Position numbers and translations under genes: made by a program
Part shown: positions 20,483 through 58,499 of the stretch, one piece after another
How positions within the stretch are numbered: the stretch's first letter is position 1
How the letters are laid out: each line of letters begins with the position of its first letter
From: Parashewanella tropica
Lineage (GTDB): Bacteria; Pseudomonadota; Gammaproteobacteria; Enterobacterales; Shewanellaceae
Direction: 5' to 3'
Assembly: GCF_004358445.1 (NCBI RefSeq)
Contig: NZ_CP037951.1
Span: 917,501-981,500 of the forward strand
DNA length: 64,000 nt
Notes under the pieces: model-generated
Seen by the model: the letters and a program-made list of their open reading frames with translations, nothing else
Told to the model about the DNA's origin: nothing
Database searches by the model: none

Positions 20483-21955
20483 TTACGATTTAATAAACCC
20501 AAGCGGTTTGTCACTTGAAGTTACATTATAAAAATTACCCAAATTAGGGAAAAGTTTTGGTAGCGTGGCTTTTTCTGCGCCAAACCACATGGCGAGTTCT
20601 GCATAAACTTCATCGGTTGATGTCGTTGGGATCAGTACACCACCACCCACATCTAACTCGTTAGCATCACCTAGGTTGAGTGCAGGGTATTGTCCAAATA
20701 CTTCACCACCTTTAACGGCATTACCCATTACTAAAGTATTACCACCCCAGCCGTGATCAGTACCATTACCATTTGAGGTTAATGAGCGACCAAAATCAGA
20801 GCCTGTAAAGGTAACCACTTCATCCGCGACTCCTAAGTCATCCAACGCTTGTTGGAAGCCAGAAAGCGCATCATCAACAATGCCTAGCATCTTGTTGTGG
20901 GTTTTGAGTAGCTCACTGTGATGATCCCAGCCGATGTAGCGCACAAAGAAGGTTTGTTGCTGACCAGCCATTCCCAGTGCCGCTCTTGCTTTAATGGTTT
21001 TCGCCACCATTTCAAGTTGTTGGGCTAGCTCAGAATCACCGCCTTTCCAATCTACAGTAATAGTTTTAGTAGCTTCCTCAAACTTCTCAAATTGAGCTTG
21101 AGAGTATTTCACACCATTGACGTAGGTTTTATCAAAGCTTGAACCTGAAGTTGATTCAAGCATGTCGTTGAATCCTTTTAATAGAACATCATTCAGATCT
21201 TTAAGTGCGGGGTTGGCATTATCTTTAACAGATAAACCGACACTACCAGATTTGGTGATGGCGTACTCACGGCTTTTCACACCATTTTGCATGATGTTAC
21301 TGCCCGCGAGTGAGATATTCATTGATATATCATCATTGGCTTTATTTGGTTGAACCACATCAGCGATGCTTCCAAACCAACCTGAGTTTAAGCGCTCGCT
21401 AGGGCGAGAGGTTTGCCAATGCTTAAATTGATCAGAGTGTGACATTAGACCTAAAGGCAGAGGCTTAGAGTTGGCTCTGTATTCGGCTTTAGTCACTCTT
21501 TCTACCATAGGGCCAACGTTGGCGATAAATGATAGTTTTTTATCGTTAAACAACTTCTGAGTTTTTGGTAGTGCAGGGTGCAAACCGAATTGTTTACCCT
21601 GCTGATTACTTACGTCATTCAAGTTATGCAGTTTGCTTTTATCAATGCTTAATGCTCCACGCGTGGCTTGGTACTGTGCATAATCAGCAGCTGTACGTGG
21701 CACTAGCATATTGAAGCTGTCGTTACCGCCATCAAGCATAATGAATACAAGACTCTTAGCTTGTTTGGCTACTTTCAACGGTCCAGCCACAGGCGGATTT
21801 ACAGGCGGGTTCACTGGTGGATTTACAGGAGGCGTTACAGGCGTACCTGCAGAGCTGCCTCCACCGCCACAGCCTGTGAGCATTGCAGTTGTCCCCACCA
21901 TAAAGACTGTGGAGGTGTGTAAAAACTGACGTCTAGTATAATTTTTGTTCGACAT
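20483..21955 (-). CDS. DUF1501 protein, Tat-exported lipoprotein-like
   Basis: This 490-residue member of the DUF1501 family has an alkaline-phosphatase-like fold of unknown substrate. A twin-arginine motif (YTRRQFLH, RR at 8-9) is followed by a hydrophobic stretch. The lipobox LTGC (Cys29) comes next, so it is probably a Tat-exported lipoprotein. A Gly/Ser run and a PVNPP tandem linker (residues about 39-58) lead into the domain. LVFIMLDGGNDSFNMLVP and GTDHGWGGNTLVMG are the family landmarks. It starts 2 bases after the stop of a DUF1800 gene; the two families are regularly paired. A second pair is at 37998-40506. The role of the pair is not known; a redox- or surface-polymer-related function has been suggested only by context. 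Confidence 0.85.
   Translation of the reverse strand: MSNKNYTRRQFLHTSTVFMVGTTAMLTGCGGGGSSAGTPVTPPVNPPVNPPVNPPVAGPLKVAKQAKSLVFIMLDGGNDSFNMLVPRTAADYAQYQATRGALSIDKSKLHNLNDVSNQQGKQFGLHPALPKTQKLFNDKKLSFIANVGPMVERVTKAEYRANSKPLPLGLMSHSDQFKHWQTSRPSERLNSGWFGSIADVVQPNKANDDISMNISLAGSNIMQNGVKSREYAITKSGSVGLSVKDNANPALKDLNDVLLKGFNDMLESTSGSSFDKTYVNGVKYSQAQFEKFEEATKTITVDWKGGDSELAQQLEMVAKTIKARAALGMAGQQQTFFVRYIGWDHHSELLKTHNKMLGIVDDALSGFQQALDDLGVADEVVTFTGSDFGRSLTSNGNGTDHGWGGNTLVMGNAVKGGEVFGQYPALNLGDANELDVGGGVLIPTTSTDEVYAELAMWFGAEKATLPKLFPNLGNFYNVTSSDKPLGFIKS
21792..21839 (-). repeat. 12-bp tandem repeat encoding a Pro-rich linker
   Basis: Four consecutive 12-base units (21792-21803, 21804-21815, 21816-21827, 21828-21839) vary around GGCGGATTTACA. 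They encode repeats of PVNP in the linker after the lipobox of the DUF1501 protein. Unit-number change would alter linker length in frame. Confidence 0.75.
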
Positions 21956-21957
21956 GA

Positions 21958-23853
21958 TTAAGCCTCCAGAATAGCAAAGTCAGGTGATACGGCGATCATA
22001 AATACCACTGTTTGAACAATCCAAAGGCTGTTTTTTGGATTACTTGTATCGTTTTGTTTATCGAGTGCATCGAGGATGTTTGCTTTTACTGAGCTTTGCT
22101 CTTTGCCAGTTAACACCAGAGAAACACGCTCAATAAGTTGTGACCACTTGTTTTTATCAGCAGCCAATGGAAGCTCGGCATCGAAATTGAGATTTAAACG
22201 GCTTTGTGCATTTCGTAGCAAAGTTTCAGTATCTAACTCCGGCACGATATGAGGTGGGGTTGCCACTTTAATTTCAGTACTGACAAGTGGAAGTGCTTCA
22301 CCAAACAACCAACGATAAACCATGTTTACGTAACTGATAGAAGTGTGGGCGTTATAAAGTTCGAACTCAGGGGCAACTTTGTTTTCTTTTTCAACATCCC
22401 CGTGAGGAATAAAGTCAGGCTTGTAGAAGTTAAATACCGTAGGCGAAGAAAGAATATGATGATTTAAATCCTCTTTAATATCGCTACCGATCATCCATAA
22501 ACGCTTTTGCTCATTACTAACATTAAATGCACGTAAAAGTTGAGTGACGCGCAATAATGGCGACTTTAACTTTTGAATGTTACCGACTGCTGAATCCCCA
22601 ATAGTCACAGCATTGCTTAGTGGGTAAGTCAAAATGGTTTTTACCGCTGCTTTTAAATCACCCTTTGTGCCAAAAGAACTAGCCACAGCTTGAATATATG
22701 CTGGAGTCGGGTTTGATGTTACTAATTGCTGAATGAGCTTTTTAGCGATAAATGGGGCAGTGTTTTTATGTTCTACAAGGCGTTTAACCGCTTCTTTAAT
22801 ATCAGCTAGTGTCGCCGCTCCACCGTTTGCAGTACGCTTAGGTAAGTTAATCCAGCCATTGAGCAGTTTTTTAGGCTCAAGATCATGGAAGGCATCCTCT
22901 GTGGTCATAGGCTTTATCATGGACACATATGGGAGCATTTTTACTGTGTTACTGACGCCGTCGGCAAACTCAATCGGGTCACCTTCGATGGTACTTAAAT
23001 CAATGCCATTGATGGTGGCGTTTGGATATTCATAACTGTATTCCGAGGCTTTTATTCCAGTGAAAACACGAGCCATTTCTTTAATGTCATCGTTGTTATA
23101 AGTCGGAATATCTTTACCATTCGCTTGTTGATGGCTGCCATCGGCATTCAATTCAAATAATCCGATGGTAAATAGCTGCATGATTTCACGTGCGTAGTTT
23201 TCATCAGGGTGAATGTTTTCAGCAGGCACGGCTTTACGGTTGTTTATGTGAGTCAAATACACGCCCATACAAGGATGCAGCGAGACGTCAGTTAATAAAT
23301 CCGTGTATGAACCAAGCGCATGTTTATATAGCAAGTCGTAATAGCTCGCCATGCCTTCAGCGTCTAACTCTAGAATCGAGTTATCAGAAATAACGAGAAT
23401 TTCACTTAATGCTTGGGCAACTCTATGACGAACCAGATTATCCGAACTGGCTTCAGAAGCGGAAATTTTGGGCTGCTCTGTAAAGTCAGTATCAAGAGTC
23501 GAGTCTTCAGGCAAGTTACCCTGTACTAGGGTTTTGTGCCACCACGCTTGTCTAAAGTAATAATTATAAGGAAGAGCAGGGTTACTTCCGCTTTCACCGT
23601 TGATTGGAACATTAGGATAGGCTGCGTTAATTTTTGCTCTGAAGCCTTTAGTTTTCGACTTACCACGCCAGATATCATGCGTTTTTTGATAAAAACCGTC
23701 TTTTACAAAACCGTTTTCAACCTGTACTTGATGATTTAATTGCTCATCAAGCCAAGCACTAATTCCATCTTGACTGACCTTTTCTATCAGCTGGTGATTT
23801 GCTCCCAATGTAGCTTGCATTAAAAAACGGGAAGCTTGCTCTTTTGTATTCAT
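21958..23853 (-). CDS. DUF1800 protein
   Basis: This large DUF1800-family protein has 631 residues from the ATG chosen. MNTKEQASRFLMQATLG is the conserved opening; a TTG start eight codons upstream is less likely. Landmarks are NYAREIMQLFTIGLFELN, followed by DDIKEMARVFTGIKA and FIAKKLIQQLV. The C-terminal part includes LSSPTVFNFYKPDF. No signal peptide is evident, so the partner DUF1501 Tat signal may export the pair by hitch-hiking (inference). It is translationally coupled to the DUF1501 gene (2-base gap). Longer than the second copy at 37998 (450 residues). Biochemical function unknown. Confidence 0.85.
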   Translation of the reverse strand: MNTKEQASRFLMQATLGANHQLIEKVSQDGISAWLDEQLNHQVQVENGFVKDGFYQKTHDIWRGKSKTKGFRAKINAAYPNVPINGESGSNPALPYNYYFRQAWWHKTLVQGNLPEDSTLDTDFTEQPKISASEASSDNLVRHRVAQALSEILVISDNSILELDAEGMASYYDLLYKHALGSYTDLLTDVSLHPCMGVYLTHINNRKAVPAENIHPDENYAREIMQLFTIGLFELNADGSHQQANGKDIPTYNNDDIKEMARVFTGIKASEYSYEYPNATINGIDLSTIEGDPIEFADGVSNTVKMLPYVSMIKPMTTEDAFHDLEPKKLLNGWINLPKRTANGGAATLADIKEAVKRLVEHKNTAPFIAKKLIQQLVTSNPTPAYIQAVASSFGTKGDLKAAVKTILTYPLSNAVTIGDSAVGNIQKLKSPLLRVTQLLRAFNVSNEQKRLWMIGSDIKEDLNHHILSSPTVFNFYKPDFIPHGDVEKENKVAPEFELYNAHTSISYVNMVYRWLFGEALPLVSTEIKVATPPHIVPELDTETLLRNAQSRLNLNFDAELPLAADKNKWSQLIERVSLVLTGKEQSSVKANILDALDKQNDTSNPKNSLWIVQTVVFMIAVSPDFAILEA

Positions 23854-24072
23854 TTTCTGCGACTCTGTTTGTAACAATGCATTTTGTGATGATCAAAGTT
23901 ACAACATTTATTTAAATTTTCAAGTTGAAAATTTATGTTTTAGTTGATAAATATCAATCAAATTAGAATTTGAAAACTTATCTTTATGATTTTAACGAAT
24001 ATTTTCTTTTTGAAAATTTATTGCTGTAGCTTCAATCTGTGAAGCATGTTGAGTGCTATTGGTGTGTCTTTC

Positions 24073-37357: not shown

Positions 37358-37822
37358 TTATTGGTTGAAGTTGTTGGAAGTCCCTAATATAAACTTCATT
37401 GCATGAGCAAAGCCATTGGTTCGGTAAGTATTTTTGGTATTTGGATAGTCGGGTAAATTAATGGTAATAGCCTGAGCATCAAGAAGATTTAGCTTTATCA
37501 CTTTCATAAAATCACTGGAACTTTGAACCCACTCATGGTCTTTGCAATCGAAAGGTGACTCGATTGAATGATAGTTTGCCGTGGCTCTGAGATGGTTAGA
37601 TATACTCGTATTACACTTTAATGATGGAACAGTATAAGAAACAAAACAATGAGCGTGATAGGTACAGGCCATTGAAAAAATACGATCAGATGAATTGGTT
37701 GGAGTAGCAGTCATCACTTGCGCTCCATTATCACTAATGACCTTCCAATCTCCAAAGACTTTGATAGAACCACCTGCAAATGCTGGCGCACTGAGTACAG
37801 CTAAAAGAATTAATGCTTTCAT
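37358..37822 (-). CDS. Small secreted four-cysteine protein (solo member)
   Basis: This 154-residue protein belongs to an unrecognised family with three more members at 55338-56883. A signal peptide ends at about residue 17 (APAFA-GG). Near the mature N terminus is VFGDWKVIS. The cysteines are Cys53, Cys59, Cys70 and Cys93 (C-x5-C-x10-C-x22-C), followed by a Trp (CKDHEW), and the C terminus ends SNNFNQ. With an even number of cysteines after export it probably has two disulfides. General layout (gdW, paired Cys, final hydrophobic helix) is loosely like VasI/IalB-type secreted proteins, but no match can be claimed. It stands alone, convergent with the exporter operon. Confidence 0.75.
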   Translation of the reverse strand: MKALILLAVLSAPAFAGGSIKVFGDWKVISDNGAQVMTATPTNSSDRIFSMACTYHAHCFVSYTVPSLKCNTSISNHLRATANYHSIESPFDCKDHEWVQSSSDFMKVIKLNLLDAQAITINLPDYPNTKNTYRTNGFAHAMKFILGTSNNFNQ

Positions 37823-37997: not shown

Positions 37998-39350
37998 ATG
38001 TCTGCGGATGCCGTTATAGCGGTCAATCGTTTTGGTATGGGAGCCAGAAAAGGGGAATTGGAAAAAGCCAGTCGCGATCCGGTTCAATATCTCATCGACC
38101 AACTACAGCCAATCAGCTTTAATGAAAAGCTCCCTAATTCTGATCAACTCTCTATTCATTTAGCCAATTATCAACAACAAAAGCGCTTGATGAAGAAAGA
38201 ACCTGACTCTGAACAAGCGAAAGATTTCGCCAAGCAGCAAAAGCAAATCCGTCGATATCTTGGTGGAAATTTTAGAGCCTTATGTTGTGACACTTTACAA
38301 AGAGCGATTCATTCAGAGCAATCATTAGCGTGGCGGTTACTGGATTTCTGGTCGAATCATTTTAGTGTGACTGCCAAAGGCCAAATGATGCGAGTATTAG
38401 CGCCAACGTTAGAACGTGAAGCCATTGCACCTCGCATGTTCGGTCCTTTCCATGAAATGGTGCTGGCGGTAATGCATCACCCTGCGATGCTGGTTTATTT
38501 GAATAATGATAAGTCGTTTGGTCCCAATTCTAGAATTGGCAGACGTGGTAAAGGTCTCAATGAAAATTTAGGTCGCGAGTTGATGGAGCTACATACCATG
38601 GGCGTTGGCTCTGGTTACACTCAAGCCGACGTGATTGAAATGGCCAAAGGTATAACAGGCTGGAGCGTGGCAAGACCACAGCGAGACGATACGACTGGGT
38701 TTATGTTTAGAGCCAATGGTCACGAACCCGGTCATCGAGTGTTACTAGGTAAAACCTATCGTCAAGGTGGAGAAGCACAAGGAGTTGCCATGATCAAAGC
38801 GGTTGCTCGTCACCCCGCAACAGCAAAGCATGTTTCTACTCAACTTGCTCGTCATTTTGTGTCAGATAATCCACCCGAATCGCTTATTAAAAAAATGACT
38901 GATCGTTGGCTGGACACAGATGGCAATCTGAAAGAAGTTATGATTACTTTAATAAAATCAGATGAAGCTTGGCATCAAGAACGTCAGAAATTTAAGTCTC
39001 CGCGGGAGTACGTGATCTCAACTTGCCGGGCTTTGAATTTTCAACCTAAAAAGCAGCAAGCGTTTTTGTGGTTTTTGAAGAGCTTGGGGCAAAGCCCGTT
39101 TCAAGCTAATTCCCCTGAAGGCTATGGCGATATTGAAGCCGATTGGAATGGTCCTAGTGCAGTTATGTCACGGGCAAATTGGTCATCACAAATAGCGAAA
39201 AGCCGTGGTTTTCTCGATCCCGTATACACAATGAGGCAATTGTTGGGAGAGCAAGTGAGTAACACCACTGAATTAGCGGTGAAACGTGCTGAAAGTCGCC
39301 CACAAGCTCTGACCGTGATGTTAATGAGTCCTGAGTTCTTGCGCCGCTAA
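37998..39350 (+). CDS. DUF1800 protein, second copy
   Basis: This 450-residue DUF1800 protein is shorter than the one at 21958. Landmarks are AWRLLDFWSNHFSVTAKG, NLGRELMELHTMGVGSGYT and ADVIEMAKGITGW. The C terminus has SPREYVISTCRAL and a final LMSPEFLRR. There is no signal peptide. GGAG lies ten bases before the ATG. It is followed after 13 bases by a DUF1501 gene, so the pair is an operon. Close to the canonical family length, in contrast to the enlarged first copy. Confidence 0.88.
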   Translation: MSADAVIAVNRFGMGARKGELEKASRDPVQYLIDQLQPISFNEKLPNSDQLSIHLANYQQQKRLMKKEPDSEQAKDFAKQQKQIRRYLGGNFRALCCDTLQRAIHSEQSLAWRLLDFWSNHFSVTAKGQMMRVLAPTLEREAIAPRMFGPFHEMVLAVMHHPAMLVYLNNDKSFGPNSRIGRRGKGLNENLGRELMELHTMGVGSGYTQADVIEMAKGITGWSVARPQRDDTTGFMFRANGHEPGHRVLLGKTYRQGGEAQGVAMIKAVARHPATAKHVSTQLARHFVSDNPPESLIKKMTDRWLDTDGNLKEVMITLIKSDEAWHQERQKFKSPREYVISTCRALNFQPKKQQAFLWFLKSLGQSPFQANSPEGYGDIEADWNGPSAVMSRANWSSQIAKSRGFLDPVYTMRQLLGEQVSNTTELAVKRAESRPQALTVMLMSPEFLRR

Positions 39351-39363
39351 TGAGGAGAGTAAT

Positions 39364-40506
39364 ATGAAACGTCGTGATTTTTTTAAAGTCGTTGGTGGCA
39401 CTATTTTATTGATGCAAAGCCCTAGATTGGTGTTTGCTTCTCCCTCAATGGCGACTGATCGCAACAAAAAATTTATTTGGATCATTTTACGTGGGGCTAT
39501 GGACTCATTACATACAGTGATACCTGAGTTTGACAGCGAGTACACCAAACTGCGTCCAAGGCTCTCAAAACAAATCACTGAACCTACTTTGAAAATTGGT
39601 AAAGGCTTTGCCTTTAATCCAGCCATGCAAAATATGTATAAGCTTTATCAACAGAAAGAGTTATTACCCATTGTAGCTGTAGGTAGTGGTTATCCGAGTC
39701 GTTCACATTTTGATGGGCAAGATTTTTTAGAAGGTGGAACCGGTACTCAAAATATTAAATCGGGTTGGTTAGCTAGAGCTGTCGATCAAAAACAAGTTGA
39801 GGCGGTAGCGATTGATTACGCTAAGCCAGTAAGTTTACGAGGCTCAAGTAAAGTTACCACTTGGTACCCCTCTAAGCTTAAAGAAGCTGACAACGATGTG
39901 TTTTCCACCCTTGAGAAACTTTATCAAGGAGATAAACGTCTTACTGCAAGCTTGAAGGGCGGGTTAGAGCTCAAAGCCAATGCGGGTGGAATGAAAGACA
40001 GTAAAGCCAAAAAAGGCTCGTTGTCAGAATTAACCGCTGACTGCGCCAATCTACTATTAAAAAGTAAAACTATGGATTGTGCGATGCTAGAAACCGTAGG
40101 CTGGGATACTCATAATGCTCAACATAGTCGCTTAGATCGGCAGCTAAGAGAGTTAGATGCTGGTTTATTATCGCTAAAACAAGCGATGGGCAAAGAATGG
40201 AAAAATACAGTTGTAGCGATTGCCACCGAGTTCGGTCGAACAGCGAGAGAAAATGGAACTCAAGGCACCGATCATGGCACCGGCGGAGTCATGTTTTTAG
40301 CGGGTGGCGGTGTGAAGGGAGGTCAGGTACTTGGTAAATGGCCTGGATTGAAAGATGACCAGTTATTCCAAAACCGAGATTTAATGCCGACGACCAATAC
40401 CTTTGATTGGCTAGCAACAGCTCTATCACAACATTGGCAACTTAACTCTGAGCAAATTAAGCACGTATTTCCAACAGGGAAAATTTATCAGGATAGAGTG
40501 GTTTAA
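39364..40506 (+). CDS. DUF1501 protein, second copy, Tat signal
   Basis: This 380-residue DUF1501 protein starts MKRRDFFKVVGGTILLM, a clear twin-arginine signal (RR at 3-4). Unlike the first copy it has no lipobox and no Pro-rich linker, so it is probably a soluble periplasmic or secreted protein. Landmarks are FIWIILRGAMDSLHTVIP, SRSHFDGQDFLEGGT and GTDHGTGGVMFLAGG. It follows its DUF1800 partner by 13 bases. It ends before a strong bidirectional terminator. Function unknown; part of the conserved DUF1800/DUF1501 pair. Confidence 0.88.
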   Translation: MKRRDFFKVVGGTILLMQSPRLVFASPSMATDRNKKFIWIILRGAMDSLHTVIPEFDSEYTKLRPRLSKQITEPTLKIGKGFAFNPAMQNMYKLYQQKELLPIVAVGSGYPSRSHFDGQDFLEGGTGTQNIKSGWLARAVDQKQVEAVAIDYAKPVSLRGSSKVTTWYPSKLKEADNDVFSTLEKLYQGDKRLTASLKGGLELKANAGGMKDSKAKKGSLSELTADCANLLLKSKTMDCAMLETVGWDTHNAQHSRLDRQLRELDAGLLSLKQAMGKEWKNTVVAIATEFGRTARENGTQGTDHGTGGVMFLAGGGVKGGQVLGKWPGLKDDQLFQNRDLMPTTNTFDWLATALSQHWQLNSEQIKHVFPTGKIYQDRVV

Positions 40507-53378: not shown

Positions 53379-55052
53379 TTACTTTTTCTCATAACCATCA
53401 TTATGAACATCAAACATGGCTCGACCAGATGGGTCGGCATTGGCGGCAAAAGCTTTATCCCATGCAATGGCTTCAGGTGTAGAACAGGCTACGGACTTAC
53501 CACCTGGCACACACTTAATGGCGGTTTCTAGAGGGAATAACTCTTCGAAGATGGCACGATAATAATAGGCTTCTTTCGTTTCTGGCGTATTATGTGGGAA
53601 TCGATGTTCAGCACTATCCATCATTTGGTCTGTCACTGATTTTTCAGCTGATGCGACCAATGAATCAATCCAGCTATAACCTACGCCATCAGAGAACTGT
53701 TCTTTTTGACGCCATAAGACTTCTTTAGGTAAATAGCCTTCAAATGCTTCACGAAGGATGTGTTTTTCTGCTTTGCCATTACCGCACATTTTGAGCTCTG
53801 GGTTGATGGACATAGCGACGTCCATAAAGGTCTTATCTAAAAATGGAACGCGTGCTTCAACGCCCCAAGCCGACATGGCTTTGTTGGCTCTGGCACAATC
53901 AAACATATGTAAGCGCTTGAGTTTTCGTACGGTTTCTTCATGGAACTCTTTGGCATTAGGTGCCTTATGGAAATACAAGTAACCACCAAAAATTTCATCA
54001 GCCCCTTCACCTGAAAGCACCATTTTTATGCCCATGGCTTTAATTTTTCGCGCCATTAAATACATAGGTGTGGATGCTCGGATAGTGGTGACATCGTAGG
54101 TTTCTAAGTGATAGATGACCTTGCGAATCGCATCGATACCTTCTTGTACCGTGTAATGCAATTCATGGTGAATGGTACCAATATAATCGGCAACTAAGCG
54201 TGCGGCTTTTAAATCTGGTGCGCCTTCTAAGCCAACGGCAAAGGAGTGTAATTGCGGCCACCATGCTTTGCTGCGATCATGATCTTCAACACGCTTCTGG
54301 GAGAACTTTTGCGCAATCGCAGAAATTACTGATGAATCTAGGCCACCAGAAAGTAATACGCCATAAGGTACATCTGACATCATGTGAGTTTTTACTGAGT
54401 GAGTTAGTGCATCATGAATGTCTTGAGCAGTACCTGCATTGTCTTTTACCGCATCAAAGTGTTCCCACTGTCTTTGATAATAAGGCTTGATTTCACCTTC
54501 AGCAGAATCCCAATAATGTCCCGGTGGAAATTCTTTAATTGAAGTACAAGCAGGCACCAGAGCTTTCATCTCTGACGCGACATAAATTTGTCCTTCAGTG
54601 TCATAACCGTAATACAATGGAATGATACCAATATGATCACGAGCGATAAGAAAGCTGTCTTGCTCGCTGTCATATAATACAAAAGCAAACATGCCTTCTA
54701 GCTTATCAATAAAGCCATGACCTTCTTGTTCATATAAAGCCAAAATGACTTCACAGTCTGAACGAGTCTGATAAGGGTAATTTGGAGTAAGGGTATCTTG
54801 AAGAGTTTGGTGATTGTATATCTCGCCATTAACCGCCAAGATATGGGTTCGATTTTGATTAAAAAGCGGTTGTGCACCATTTTCTAAGCCAACAATAGCT
54901 AAACGCTCATGAGCCAATACCGCATTTTCATTTGACCAAACACCTGACCAATCAGGTCCACGATGTCTCATCAAACTGGATAACTCTATTGCTTTTGTTC
55001 TTAATTTTTCTGAATCAGTCGAAATGTTAAGAATACCAAAGATCGAACACAT
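53379..55052 (-). CDS. asnB: Asparagine synthetase B, glutamine-hydrolysing
   Basis: This cytosolic enzyme makes asparagine from aspartate, glutamine and ATP. The 557 residues begin MCSIFGIL, with Cys2 as the glutaminase nucleophile. The glutaminase domain runs to about residue 200 (RHRGPD, AVNGEIYNH) and the synthetase PP-loop is LSGGLDSSV (about 234-242). AGGGAAAT precedes the ATG. It lies between xseA and the secreted-protein trio, which is divergent from it. In Escherichia coli asnB is near the miaB/ubiF region, so its site here differs. Confidence 0.96.
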   Translation of the reverse strand: MCSIFGILNISTDSEKLRTKAIELSSLMRHRGPDWSGVWSNENAVLAHERLAIVGLENGAQPLFNQNRTHILAVNGEIYNHQTLQDTLTPNYPYQTRSDCEVILALYEQEGHGFIDKLEGMFAFVLYDSEQDSFLIARDHIGIIPLYYGYDTEGQIYVASEMKALVPACTSIKEFPPGHYWDSAEGEIKPYYQRQWEHFDAVKDNAGTAQDIHDALTHSVKTHMMSDVPYGVLLSGGLDSSVISAIAQKFSQKRVEDHDRSKAWWPQLHSFAVGLEGAPDLKAARLVADYIGTIHHELHYTVQEGIDAIRKVIYHLETYDVTTIRASTPMYLMARKIKAMGIKMVLSGEGADEIFGGYLYFHKAPNAKEFHEETVRKLKRLHMFDCARANKAMSAWGVEARVPFLDKTFMDVAMSINPELKMCGNGKAEKHILREAFEGYLPKEVLWRQKEQFSDGVGYSWIDSLVASAEKSVTDQMMDSAEHRFPHNTPETKEAYYYRAIFEELFPLETAIKCVPGGKSVACSTPEAIAWDKAFAANADPSGRAMFDVHNDGYEKK

Positions 55053-55337
55053 ATTTCCCTATCTCTTTTTCGTTATATCTTGCACTAAATTCGCATACTA
55101 GAGCTAAGTTGCCAAGATAAAAATGTAAATTAATTACATATTAAATCAATGGCTAACCATTGCCATGTTGAAATATGGATACAAATGGATCGGGACATTA
55201 GTAACAAATGGGTAATTTTTGTGGTTTTGACAAAGTTGAATAGCAGCTGAAAATTTGGTCTTTTTATCCTTGAAGAATTTTAACAAATAAAGCTTTCGGA
55301 ATAGTATCTCAAGACTGTTTTTACTACAAAGACGCTT

Positions 55338-55856
55338 ATGAAATTCTTGATATTAGCTTCGGCTTTACTGGCAACGCCTGCCATGGCGGCAAAATATTAT
55401 GATTGGAACACCTCTGAACAAGGGAGTTGGATTTACGCTTCTACAACGGACAAATTGAAATCAGGTAATGACCTGTGGCTAGGCTGTAATCAGCTTCGAA
55501 ACGAGTGCGCTGTTTGGCTCAAAGTGCATAGTGAAAGCTGTAATGATGCTGCAACTTACAATCTTACTGTTACAGATGGATTCCCCAAAACTTCGAAAAT
55601 AAAGAGTCAGTGTAAAAATGGAGAGTTTCATTGGGATACTGATAACAAAAAAGACTTCAAAGTGGTTCAGAAGATCTTCACATCGGTTGAGCAGACATTT
55701 AGAGAGCCCAAACAAGACATGTATGTTTGGTTGAAAAAGCCTACAGGTAAGATGGATTTTGGCATAAAGGGAGGTACACACATCATTATGTTAATGCTTC
55801 CGTCTGGTCTACAGCGAAGTAATTTCAATTCATCAGCATTTCCTTTTAACAAATAG
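55338..55856 (+). CDS. Small secreted four-cysteine protein, cluster member 1
   Basis: This 172-residue protein is the most divergent of the four-member family. The signal peptide ends at TPAMA-A (about residue 17). A Trp-containing segment EQGSWIYAS replaces the YGDW of the others. The cysteines are Cys50, Cys57, Cys68 and Cys92 (C-x6-C-x10-C-x23-C), followed by Trp (CKNGEFHW). It ends with an Asn/Phe-rich tail (SNFNSSAFPFNK) longer than in its relatives. First of three tandem genes, with a 13-base gap to the next. No family recognised. Weak ribosome-binding site, in contrast to the second gene. Confidence 0.75.
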   Translation: MKFLILASALLATPAMAAKYYDWNTSEQGSWIYASTTDKLKSGNDLWLGCNQLRNECAVWLKVHSESCNDAATYNLTVTDGFPKTSKIKSQCKNGEFHWDTDNKKDFKVVQKIFTSVEQTFREPKQDMYVWLKKPTGKMDFGIKGGTHIIMLMLPSGLQRSNFNSSAFPFNK

Positions 55857-55869
55857 GGGAGGCAGTATT

Positions 55870-56343
55870 ATGAAAAATTTACTATTTGGTATGATGTTTG
55901 TGGCTTTACCTGCACTAGCAAGTGGTCCGGTTCATCAATACGGTAGTTGGTTAGTGGTTGAATCCGATCAATCTATCAGAGCGATTTCTGATTCAACTGA
56001 TCAGCCTGGACGATTTATTGTTTTAGATTGTGGGTTAGATCATAAAAATTGCTCAGTCCTTTTTACCGACCCAAACGGTTGTAATGCTGATGCAGAAAAC
56101 ACTGTAGCACTTATTGCAGATAAGCATTACTTTGGGATAAAAACAACTTGTACGAGTTTCAATGATGGATGGAAGGCTGATGCTTCTCAACTATATGGTG
56201 GGCAAGTGTTTGATGCGCTCAAGAACACGACATCTTCGCTCAAAGTCGATTTTGGTTATGGAATAATTGCTGATTACAATACGGTAAATTTGACTAAAGT
56301 CATCAATATCCTTGAGGGACAACAAAACAATTTCAGCTTTTAA
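55870..56343 (+). CDS. Small secreted four-cysteine protein, cluster member 2
   Basis: This 157-residue exported protein has its signal peptide ending at LPALA-SG (about residue 18) and the motif QYGSWLVVE just after. The cysteines are at 54, 61, 71 and 94, the same positions as in cluster member 3, with HKNC in the second and a Trp after the fourth (CTSFNDGW). The C terminus is LTKVINILEGQQNNFSF. A strong GGGGAGG site precedes the ATG. Middle of the tandem; no catalytic motif seen. The identity of cysteine spacing and the NNFSF end with the next gene indicates duplication. Function unknown. Confidence 0.78.
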   Translation: MKNLLFGMMFVALPALASGPVHQYGSWLVVESDQSIRAISDSTDQPGRFIVLDCGLDHKNCSVLFTDPNGCNADAENTVALIADKHYFGIKTTCTSFNDGWKADASQLYGGQVFDALKNTTSSLKVDFGYGIIADYNTVNLTKVINILEGQQNNFSF

Positions 56344-56403
56344 ATTTTATGAATTAGGCGTTGTGATTAAGCCGCTTTATTTCATTTATAAAAGGGGAAG
56401 AAG

Positions 56404-56883
56404 GTGAAAGGCATACTCTTAAGCATGTTGATAGTCATGTTTCCAGCTATGGCCAATAGTGCAGACATTCATTATGGCGATTGGAAGATTATTACTTCTG
56501 CAAAGGACATTACTGCTCGTTCAACGTCTTCGAATCATCCCGAAGCTGCGCTTAGTTTGGTCTGTAGTGCAGATCATCAAAATTGTTTCATTCAGTTTTC
56601 TGCCCAATACTCCTGTAAAACAGGCTCTAAAATGCCTTTATATTTAGATATTGATTCATCGGATGGATTTATTGGGAGTGTTTGCAAAAACAATCAGTGG
56701 AAAGTATCAGGCTATCCCTTACCATTTATTCAAACGATATTTGATAAGCTACTTAACACAAGAAAGCCTTTCTCAGTAACTCTAGGTCACACCGATGTTC
56801 ATTATACCTTTAGTATTAAAGGGATAAAAAAAGCGATTGTGGCTATTGAAGGTGGGCTGAATAACTTCAGTTTTAATTTCTAA
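56404..56883 (+). CDS. Small secreted four-cysteine protein, cluster member 3
   Basis: This 159-residue exported protein starts at a GTG with GGGGAAG upstream. The signal peptide ends near MANSA (residue 20), followed by IHYGDWKIIT. The cysteines are at 54, 61, 71 and 94 (DHQNC as second), with Trp after the fourth (CKNNQW). A segment YTFSIKGIKKAIVAIEGG then the tail NNFSFNF closes it. The order of features (gdW, Cys pair, F-x-I-x-G, terminal helix) is loosely like VasI-type secreted proteins, but that is only a resemblance by eye. Last of the tandem, about 150 bases before guaB. Function unknown. Confidence 0.78.
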   Translation: MKGILLSMLIVMFPAMANSADIHYGDWKIITSAKDITARSTSSNHPEAALSLVCSADHQNCFIQFSAQYSCKTGSKMPLYLDIDSSDGFIGSVCKNNQWKVSGYPLPFIQTIFDKLLNTRKPFSVTLGHTDVHYTFSIKGIKKAIVAIEGGLNNFSFNF

Positions 56884-56953
56884 AGTACCACCAAATGGCT
56901 GCAAGATTTCTTGTCGTTTCAAAATACAAAAATTAATTTTTGATTATTATACA

Positions 56954-56982
56954 TTTACCCAGACTTGGTATCTGGGTATAAT
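56954..56982 (+). promoter_or_regulatory. guaB promoter with embedded palindrome
   Basis: A -35-like TTTACC (56954-56959) and a perfect -10 TATAAT (56977-56982) are 17 bases apart. The whole spacer is a dyad, ACCCAGA-N7-TCTGGGT (56957-56977), so a bound protein would block RNA polymerase. It is unlike the PurR operator of Escherichia coli. The promoter elements are seen directly; the regulator is unknown. Confidence 0.7.
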
Positions 56983-57032
56983 CCGTCCGCAATATTTCAC
57001 CTTCAACCCTACACCTCAAGGGAGATGTTGCC

Positions 57033-58499
57033 GTGCTAAGACTCAAAAAAGAAGCGCTCACGTTTGACGATGTATTACTCGTGCCTGCTCATTCTACAGT
57101 CCTCCCAAACACAGCCAATTTACAAACTCGCCTAACTCAAACCATCAATCTTAATGTGCCAATCGTTTCCGCTGCTATGGATACCGTAACCGAAGCTCGC
57201 TTAGCGATTTCAATGGCTCAGGAAGGCGGTTTAGGTTTTATTCATAAAAATATGAGCATCGAACAACAAGCTGAAGAAGTTCGAAAAGTAAAAATTTATG
57301 AAGCAGGCATCATTCAGCAACCTGTTACCGTTTCACCAAGTACAACCCTAAAAGAAGTGAGAGAGTTAACTCACCGTAATGGTTTTGCTGGCTATCCGGT
57401 TATCAATGATTCAAACGAATTAGTAGGCATTATCACTGGTCGTGATGTTCGCTTTATTACTGATTGGAACATCACGGTTGAACAAGTGATGACACCAAAA
57501 GAGCGTTTAGTTACCGTGAAAGAAGGTACAGCTCTGGTTGATGTTCAAGCGCTAATGCATACCAATCGTATTGAAAAAATCTTAGTGGTCGATGATAACT
57601 TCAAACTCAAAGGTTTGATCACAGTTAAAGATTTTGAGAAAGCCGAGCGTAAGCCTAATGCTTGTAAAGACGAGCTTGGTCGATTACGTGTTGGTGCAGC
57701 CGTTGGTGCTGGTGCAGGTAACGAAGAGCGTGTAGATGCGCTGGTTAAAGCTGGCGCTGATGTGTTGTTGATTGACTCATCTCACGGTCACTCGGAAGGT
57801 GTTCTTCAGCGTATTCGTGAAACTCGTGCTAAGTATCCTGATTTACAAATCGTGGGCGGCAACGTAGCAACCGCGGAAGGGGCTTTAGCCTTAGTTGAAG
57901 CGGGCGTAAATGCGGTAAAAGTGGGTATTGGCCCGGGCTCTATTTGTACCACTCGTATCGTTACAGGTGTTGGTGTTCCTCAAATTACGGCGGTTTCTGA
58001 TGCCGCTGAAGCGTTAAAAGATTTGGATATTCCCGTGATTGCTGATGGTGGTATTCGTTTTTCTGGTGATTTAGCTAAAGCACTAGCCGCTGGTGCATCG
58101 TGCATCATGGCAGGCTCTATGTTTGCGGGTACAGAAGAAGCTCCGGGTGAAACCATTTTATTCCAAGGTCGTACTTATAAGTCATATCGTGGTATGGGTT
58201 CTTTAGGAGCGATGTCTCAAGGTTCATCAGACCGTTATTTCCAAACCGATAATGCCGCTGACAAGCTAGTGCCAGAAGGCATTGAAGGTCGAGTACCCTA
58301 CAAAGGGCACTTAAAAGAAATCATCCACCAGCAAATGGGCGGTTTGCGCTCATGCATGGGGCTAACAGGTTGTGCCACGATTCAAGAGCTGAATACCAAA
58401 GCTGAGTTTGTAAAAGTAACTTCAGCAGGCATGGGTGAGTCGCACGTGCATGATGTCACCATGACGAAAGAAGCGCCTAATTACCGTACTGGTGTGTAG
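57033..58499 (+). CDS. guaB: IMP dehydrogenase
   Basis: This enzyme oxidises IMP to XMP with NAD, the committed step to GMP. The 488 residues have two CBS domains at about 93-205 within the barrel. The catalytic Cys305 is in [15 protein letters not shown] and the flap RYFQ follows. The start is a GTG, preceded by AGGGAG. It is the first gene of guaB-guaA. A structured repeat sits between the two genes. Upstream is a palindromic promoter and, unusually, three small secreted-protein genes instead of a divergent xseA. Confidence 0.97.

Follow-up and report, generated by a model that had tools for sequence, protein, structure and literature searches.

A lineage-private family of small, putatively exported proteins with a predicted IalB-type fold in two sister Parashewanella species

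Background

A 64,000-nucleotide stretch of the Parashewanella tropica genome (contig NZ_CP037951.1, positions 917,501 to 981,500), referred to here in its whole length as the window, encodes four small cysteine-bearing proteins, three of them in tandem (genes 1 to 3) and one apart (the solo copy), which an earlier note on this DNA took for a new family. What are these proteins, how far does the family extend, and what might its members do? Judged from sequence comparison and structure prediction, what is new is a family that, among the genomes searched, is private to P. tropica and P. curva, and what is known is its fold; the claim of novelty thus stands in that no described family matches and falls in that the fold is familiar. 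By their predicted fold, the proteins add a diversified, lineage-private family to IalB, the MotY N-domain, certain phage proteins and perhaps VasI, whose fold is widespread, exported and functionally little explained.

Family membership and distribution

A profile of the four window proteins retrieved five more genes from the P. tropica genome (4.22 Mb), four over their full length (E 2.7e-21 to 8e-15) and one over the first half (E 7e-5), and 18 rows from P. curva (best E 3e-47); BLASTP searches of member against member were significant for most pairs. By sequence, gene 1 is the most weakly connected of the four, with a best non-orthologous match at E 1e-5, and its orthologue in P. curva holds the same genomic place. 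By these comparisons the four window proteins are one family, beyond chance resemblance. A trio plus a solo copy, the size first given for it, proved too low a count, as P. tropica alone carries nine intact copies at six sites: the trio, the solo copy, two single copies, a pair at 2.47 Mb and one copy within a mobile-type element. In P. curva, 21 match rows were read as 19 loci, comprising 14 intact copies (one split over two contig ends), one distant copy (L043) and four degenerate ones.

The family was found in 2 of the 152 genomes of the taxonomic family, those of P. tropica and P. curva, and in none of the three other Parashewanella congeners. The two species are sisters by guaB (98% identity, against 91–92%) and by xseA (87%, against 66–67%). 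In the wider samples, the top 9–10 first-look candidates per genome were scored, so that remote relatives could escape, and P. curva was evidently absent from both. The order sample (394 genomes) yielded three weak rows (E 3.5e-4 to 1e-3), none of which was retained as a member: two hold stop codons and the third (L047) is a DUF1176 protein (E 3.8e-99). The class sample (369 genomes) had no match at E 1e-4 beyond P. tropica itself, and the solo protein matched no plasmid. Within this sampling of sequences, the family is private to the two sister species. The titles and abstract openings of the open literature on Parashewanella, subscription papers lying outside this scope, point to no paper on such a family.

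That no described family could be recognised was borne out by the library searches. With 21 members, Pfam, PHROGs and PADLOC gave scattered single-member rows near chance; NCBIfam returned no row for the four window proteins, and a sequence search of the PDB returned one, at E 1.4.

Sequence features

Most of what had first been read from the letters held on closer analysis: the four open reading frames (ORFs) have the lengths given earlier (154–172 amino acids, aa; Table 1), and all four proteins follow the spacing C-x(5,6)-C-x(9,10)-C-x(22,23)-C. The cysteines (C1 to C4) stand at residues 50/57/68/92 in gene 1 (x6-x10-x23), at 54/61/71/94 in both gene 2 and gene 3 (x6-x9-x22), identical as claimed, and at 53/59/70/93 in the solo copy (x5-x10-x22). 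A tryptophan follows the last cysteine by 5–7 residues and an Asn/Phe-rich tail closes the protein in all four. The early (F/Y)G(D/S)W motif also stands, except that its counterpart in gene 1 is YYDW (residues 20–23), which aligns with FGDW, and not the QGSW previously assigned. Signal peptides, predicted here from simple features (a hydrophobic stretch and a permissive small-x-Ala pattern) and not by a dedicated predictor, are likewise present in the four and in all 22 members scored.

C1 and C2 are both absent, with C3 and C4 kept, in L007, L021 and the broken copy L025, which form one sub-lineage, and their joint absence is probably one event. This loss in a pair suggests C1–C2 and C3–C4 bonds, and two such disulfides are plausible on the sequence pattern. 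L010 deviates from the family pattern in its last cysteines.

The tail takes the form [NS]N[FY], at most 18 residues from the end and after the last helix, in 22 of 22 intact members scored, and none of the 157 further ORFs in the stretches analysed carries it. Copies that are broken or split (L013, L024/L028, L025 and L027) were excluded from the feature scoring and the tail count, and the distant L043, an ORF of the P. curva stretch L069, was not scored as a member and falls among the 157. In the predicted models of the solo copy and gene 1 the tail has a predicted local distance difference test score (pLDDT) below 50. The conservation of a seemingly unstructured tail on a diverged domain suggests that it is recognised by a shared partner.

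Predicted fold

The proteins are predicted to adopt an IalB-type β-sandwich (strands, helix, two strands, helix), and in the model of gene 1 the strands and helices follow this order from the second strand on. The assignment was obtained by VIA-align re-ranking of Foldseek's list, in which the models matched IalB of Bartonella henselae (PDB, 3dtd). A global hhalign comparison of the family with IalB scored 27.8 over 128 columns (E 3e-5), the best of 40 shuffles reaching 7.45, which is consistent with a remote sequence relationship along the whole domain. The IalB gathering cut-off in Pfam was not reached, none of 21 members matching at E ≤ 1, and the IalB model (PF06776) had no match in the P. 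tropica genome.

Like the family, IalB is an exported single domain of similar size, with a predicted fold that agrees along almost all of the length, and it shares an FxDW near the start, a conserved cysteine before the first helix and an SLxGF-like start of the last helix. In contrast to the family, three of the four IalB cysteine positions have no aligned family cysteine, only C4 being aligned, and the [NS]N[FY] tail is missing from all 26 IalB rows (kept from 30 loci after three wrong-frame reads and one duplicate were dropped). Being a diversified multigene set with degenerate copies likewise sets the family apart from IalB.

The same fold test matched the MotY N-domain (PF18393; PDB, 2zf8), although the MotY_N profile scored 11.8 against the family, below its own shuffles (up to 22.5). 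MotY (29 of 30 loci kept) also differs in architecture, most matches lying in open frames of about 290–340 aa, in which the domain is part of a larger protein. VasI (PF11319) belongs to a family associated with the type VI secretion system (T6SS). By eye, it resembles the family as a small protein with a signal peptide and a C-terminal F-x-x-x-G-L-x-x-x-I layout; its profile (11 of 12 rows kept) scored 21.3 locally (shuffles 16.1) and 13.1 globally (shuffles 9.0), with a probability of 1–4%. A subset of four divergent VasI rows fell below its shuffles in global mode, and the VasI hidden Markov model matched none of 21 members and nothing in the P. tropica genome. The likeness to VasI and IalB seen by eye in the earlier note is therefore backed by fold and profile comparison for IalB and is only weak for VasI.

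Evolution of the copies

A tree of 23 rows, L013 included, contains four cross-species pairs (genes 1, 2 and 3, and L007/L021) and several species-specific pairs. The window genes and their P. curva orthologues are 65% (gene 1, L012), 61% (gene 2, L011) and 62% identical (gene 3, over the 131 codons of L013, which is split by a contig end). Across the family, orthologues share 61–76% identity, and the ratio of nonsynonymous to synonymous substitution rates (dN/dS; L013 entered as its first 131 codons) is 0.13–0.26 in the three pairs, of four, that gave a computable dS, compared with 87–93% identity and 0.02–0.08 for asnB, xseA and preA. By these ratios the family evolves fast under purifying constraint, with no evidence for positive selection. 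The tree and the orthologue identities bear out the tandem duplication and strong divergence first proposed, and fast divergence together with broken copies points to birth-and-death evolution.

Possible functions

The reading that we favour, tentatively and at a little under even confidence, is that these are host-facing exported binding proteins of the IalB fold, forming a lineage-specific multigene family. Each protein would be exported via Sec, would be oxidised in the periplasm, where C1–C2 and C3–C4 would pair, and would act as a binding domain, whether periplasmic, surface-located or extracellular. Copies would duplicate, land at new intergenic sites, diverge and decay, a course to be expected if their targets vary or shift. 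Those targets would most likely be animal-host molecules, the genus Parashewanella being host-associated, and the tail would be a common handle, used in sorting or secretion or bound by a shared partner. A type II secretion system secretin is encoded in all five congeners, and release by this route is possible. Host-facing binding is favoured by the IalB invasion precedent and by the Ig-like, pentatricopeptide-repeat (PPR) and phosphatase-like neighbours of some copies. According to a review (PMC6299047), IalB is exported and its deletion lowers erythrocyte invasion; the review describes its location as disputed, the authors hypothesising that it is mostly secreted.

Several points weigh against this reading. 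The gene 1 model is of moderate quality (pLDDT 66.8), and in its ranking the LPHT ring chain comes ahead of IalB; Foldseek by itself gave no match in the PDB at E ≤ 0.001, and the hhalign probability for IalB is 47–54%. The fold neighbours include MotY, and the best viral Foldseek matches that carry names are phage proteins, so that other roles would fit. In a comparison of Pseudovibrio (PMC5959193), ialB occurs in all genomes, host-associated and free-living, so the fold by itself is no sign of a host role. The distant L043 has YSLKGA and similarly spaced cysteines and no tail, making the tail count 22 of 23 if it is included. The host-facing step draws on analogy, on genomic setting and on the host association of the genus, and the host target, secretion past the periplasm and the disulfides are all putative.

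Other roles were weighed on the same evidence; the earlier note had named toxin/immunity, host-interaction and envelope roles without choosing among them. That the copies are orphan periplasmic immunity proteins, each neutralising a competitor's toxin delivered by T6SS or a similar system, in arrays and loners that lack toxin genes, would suit small, cysteine-bearing, tandem, diverging, lineage-restricted and predictedly exported proteins, and the VasI signal above shuffles is in keeping with it. TssC is present in all five Parashewanella, making T6SS competition available, but the three congeners that lack the family have the T6SS just as well. Among ORFs of at least 90 aa in 19 compared stretches, no gene resembling a toxin was found repeatedly next to family copies, though orphan immunity genes would show none, and PADLOC gave one single-member row (E 0.019); on balance we consider immunity unlikely. 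Housekeeping envelope proteins that dock on an envelope machine, as the MotY N-domain or VasI might, are a very improbable alternative, since the MotY_N score lies below its shuffles, P. tropica already has one separate MotY, and a core machine part would hardly vary in copy number, include degenerate copies or be missing from three congeners.

It is also doubtful that the proteins are phage-derived or phage-related envelope proteins of the IalB fold that block superinfection or phage entry and are spread by mobile elements. This reading was strengthened by the viral Foldseek library, in which most of the best matches (prob 1.00; two at E ≤ 0.001) are small proteins about as long as the family members. 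Tailed phages such as Vibrio phage VH7D and Sphingobium phage Lacusarx encode IalB-like proteins whose length and predicted fold resemble those of the family. The VH7D protein, annotated as hypothetical with 143 aa, has a frame that extends to an upstream ATG with a clear signal peptide and scores 20.2 bits against Pfam IalB (cut-off 22.1); its start is probably misannotated, and this T4-like phage probably carries a putatively exported IalB-like protein. This protein and the family share no significant sequence similarity, and it lacks the NNF tail. The solo protein matched none of 50,697 phage records at E 0.01, two further members gave chance rows only, at E 10, one three-member alignment found nothing in viral contigs, and a blastn search of phages with one IalB gene returned two short rows at chance level. 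A match of one member to a superinfection-exclusion PHROG (E 0.15) is at chance level. One P. tropica member lies among mobile-type genes (L058, below), but it is the only intact copy so placed, beside the distant L043, most others lying between chromosomal genes.

Returning to host-facing binding, the two dozen or so natural variants, with orthologue pairs, degenerate copies and a shared tag, make a good system for asking what the fold binds and whether the C-terminal tag directs localisation; host-facing members would tie the animal-associated Parashewanella to the IalB theme of Bartonella. A further speculation, which we think improbable as a whole, is a display system for diversity, in which one exported sandwich with fast-evolving faces would sit between two conserved tags, a signal peptide that is alike across members and an unstructured [NS]N[FY] tag recognised by a dedicated partner for sorting, secretion or attachment, and would give a host-associated bacterium a changeable animal-binding set.

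Genomic setting

The trio lies between asnB and guaB (names assigned by eye), and the arrangement recurs in P. curva, where one further family copy is present. In G002, a congener that lacks the family, xseA directly adjoins guaB, and in two others (G003, G004) different, mutually related ORFs of 331 and 326 aa lie between these genes; the xseA–guaB gap is hypervariable in the genus (L059–L062). In P. tropica and P. curva this gap is occupied by asnB and family genes, joined in P. curva by an ORF of 338 aa that weakly resembles tyrosine phosphatases (E 0.002).

Neighbour families that recur from one member site to another comprise two mobilisation-type genes (L058, L069) and ABC-transporter ATPases (L066, L067), along with a few matches lying further off. 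L058 (P. tropica, 2.096–2.109 Mb) holds a member among relaxase-, repressor-, primase-, integrase- and SDR-like genes, as judged by eye; L069 (P. curva, C115) is a related mobile-type element, with a relaxase-like protein 74% identical to that of L058, and contains the distant 182-aa L043. Cassette- or transposon-like spread was considered and is not supported: the 400-base flanks of 25 copies have no common repeat, and matches beyond orthologues, overlaps and tandem neighbours were short rows only (E 0.006–0.02).

Some copies lie near proteins with PPR repeats or a weak likeness to phosphatases, and Pfam was blank for five of ten neighbours scanned. At the pair site of P. tropica, four small immunoglobulin-like (Ig-like), putatively exported proteins with signal peptides that look alike are interleaved with the two members; three align mutually, the fourth is short, and the one scanned matched Pfam Ig_2/Ig_3 (E about 8e-4). 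Near a P. curva member lies a protein with many PPR repeats, which are unusual in a bacterial protein.

Table 1. Coordinates of the family members and of other features (window positions unless a locus or contig is given)
Feature	Position	Strand	Remarks
Tandem gene 1	55338..55856	+	172 aa; most divergent of the four; YYDW replaces FGDW
Gene 1 putative signal peptide	55338..55388	+	about 17 aa; by features
Gene 1 conserved C-terminal tail	55818..55853	+	SNF, 9 residues before the end
Tandem gene 2	55870..56343	+	157 aa; YGSW
Gene 2 putative signal peptide	55870..55920	+	by features
Gene 2 conserved C-terminal tail	56326..56340	+	NNF
Tandem gene 3	56404..56883	+	159 aa; GTG start; YGDW
Gene 3 putative signal peptide	56404..56454	+	by features
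Gene 3 conserved C-terminal tail	56860..56880	+	NNF
Solo copy	37358..37822	-	154 aa
Solo copy putative signal peptide	37775..37822	-	about 16 aa; by features
Solo copy conserved C-terminal tail	37361..37378	-	NNF; pLDDT <50 in model
Degenerate P. curva family copies	L049 4761-5254; L068 5948-6442; C41:7868-8143; C96:2826-2954		frame break, in-frame stops, fragment
xseA–guaB gap	53379-57033		
Ig-like ORFs	L057 5838-6185, 6493-6861, 7772-8068, 9148-9564		P. tropica, about 2.472-2.476 Mb
PPR protein	L065 2433-6422		P. curva C47; 1329 aa; Pfam PPR_3 E 1e-56
VH7D IalB-like protein	L152 27848-28354		
Two neighbouring-gene pairs	20483-23877; 37998-40506		

Elsewhere in the window, two pairs of neighbouring genes resemble what we take to be DUF1800/DUF1501 genes, and their DUF1501-like products are 24% identical.
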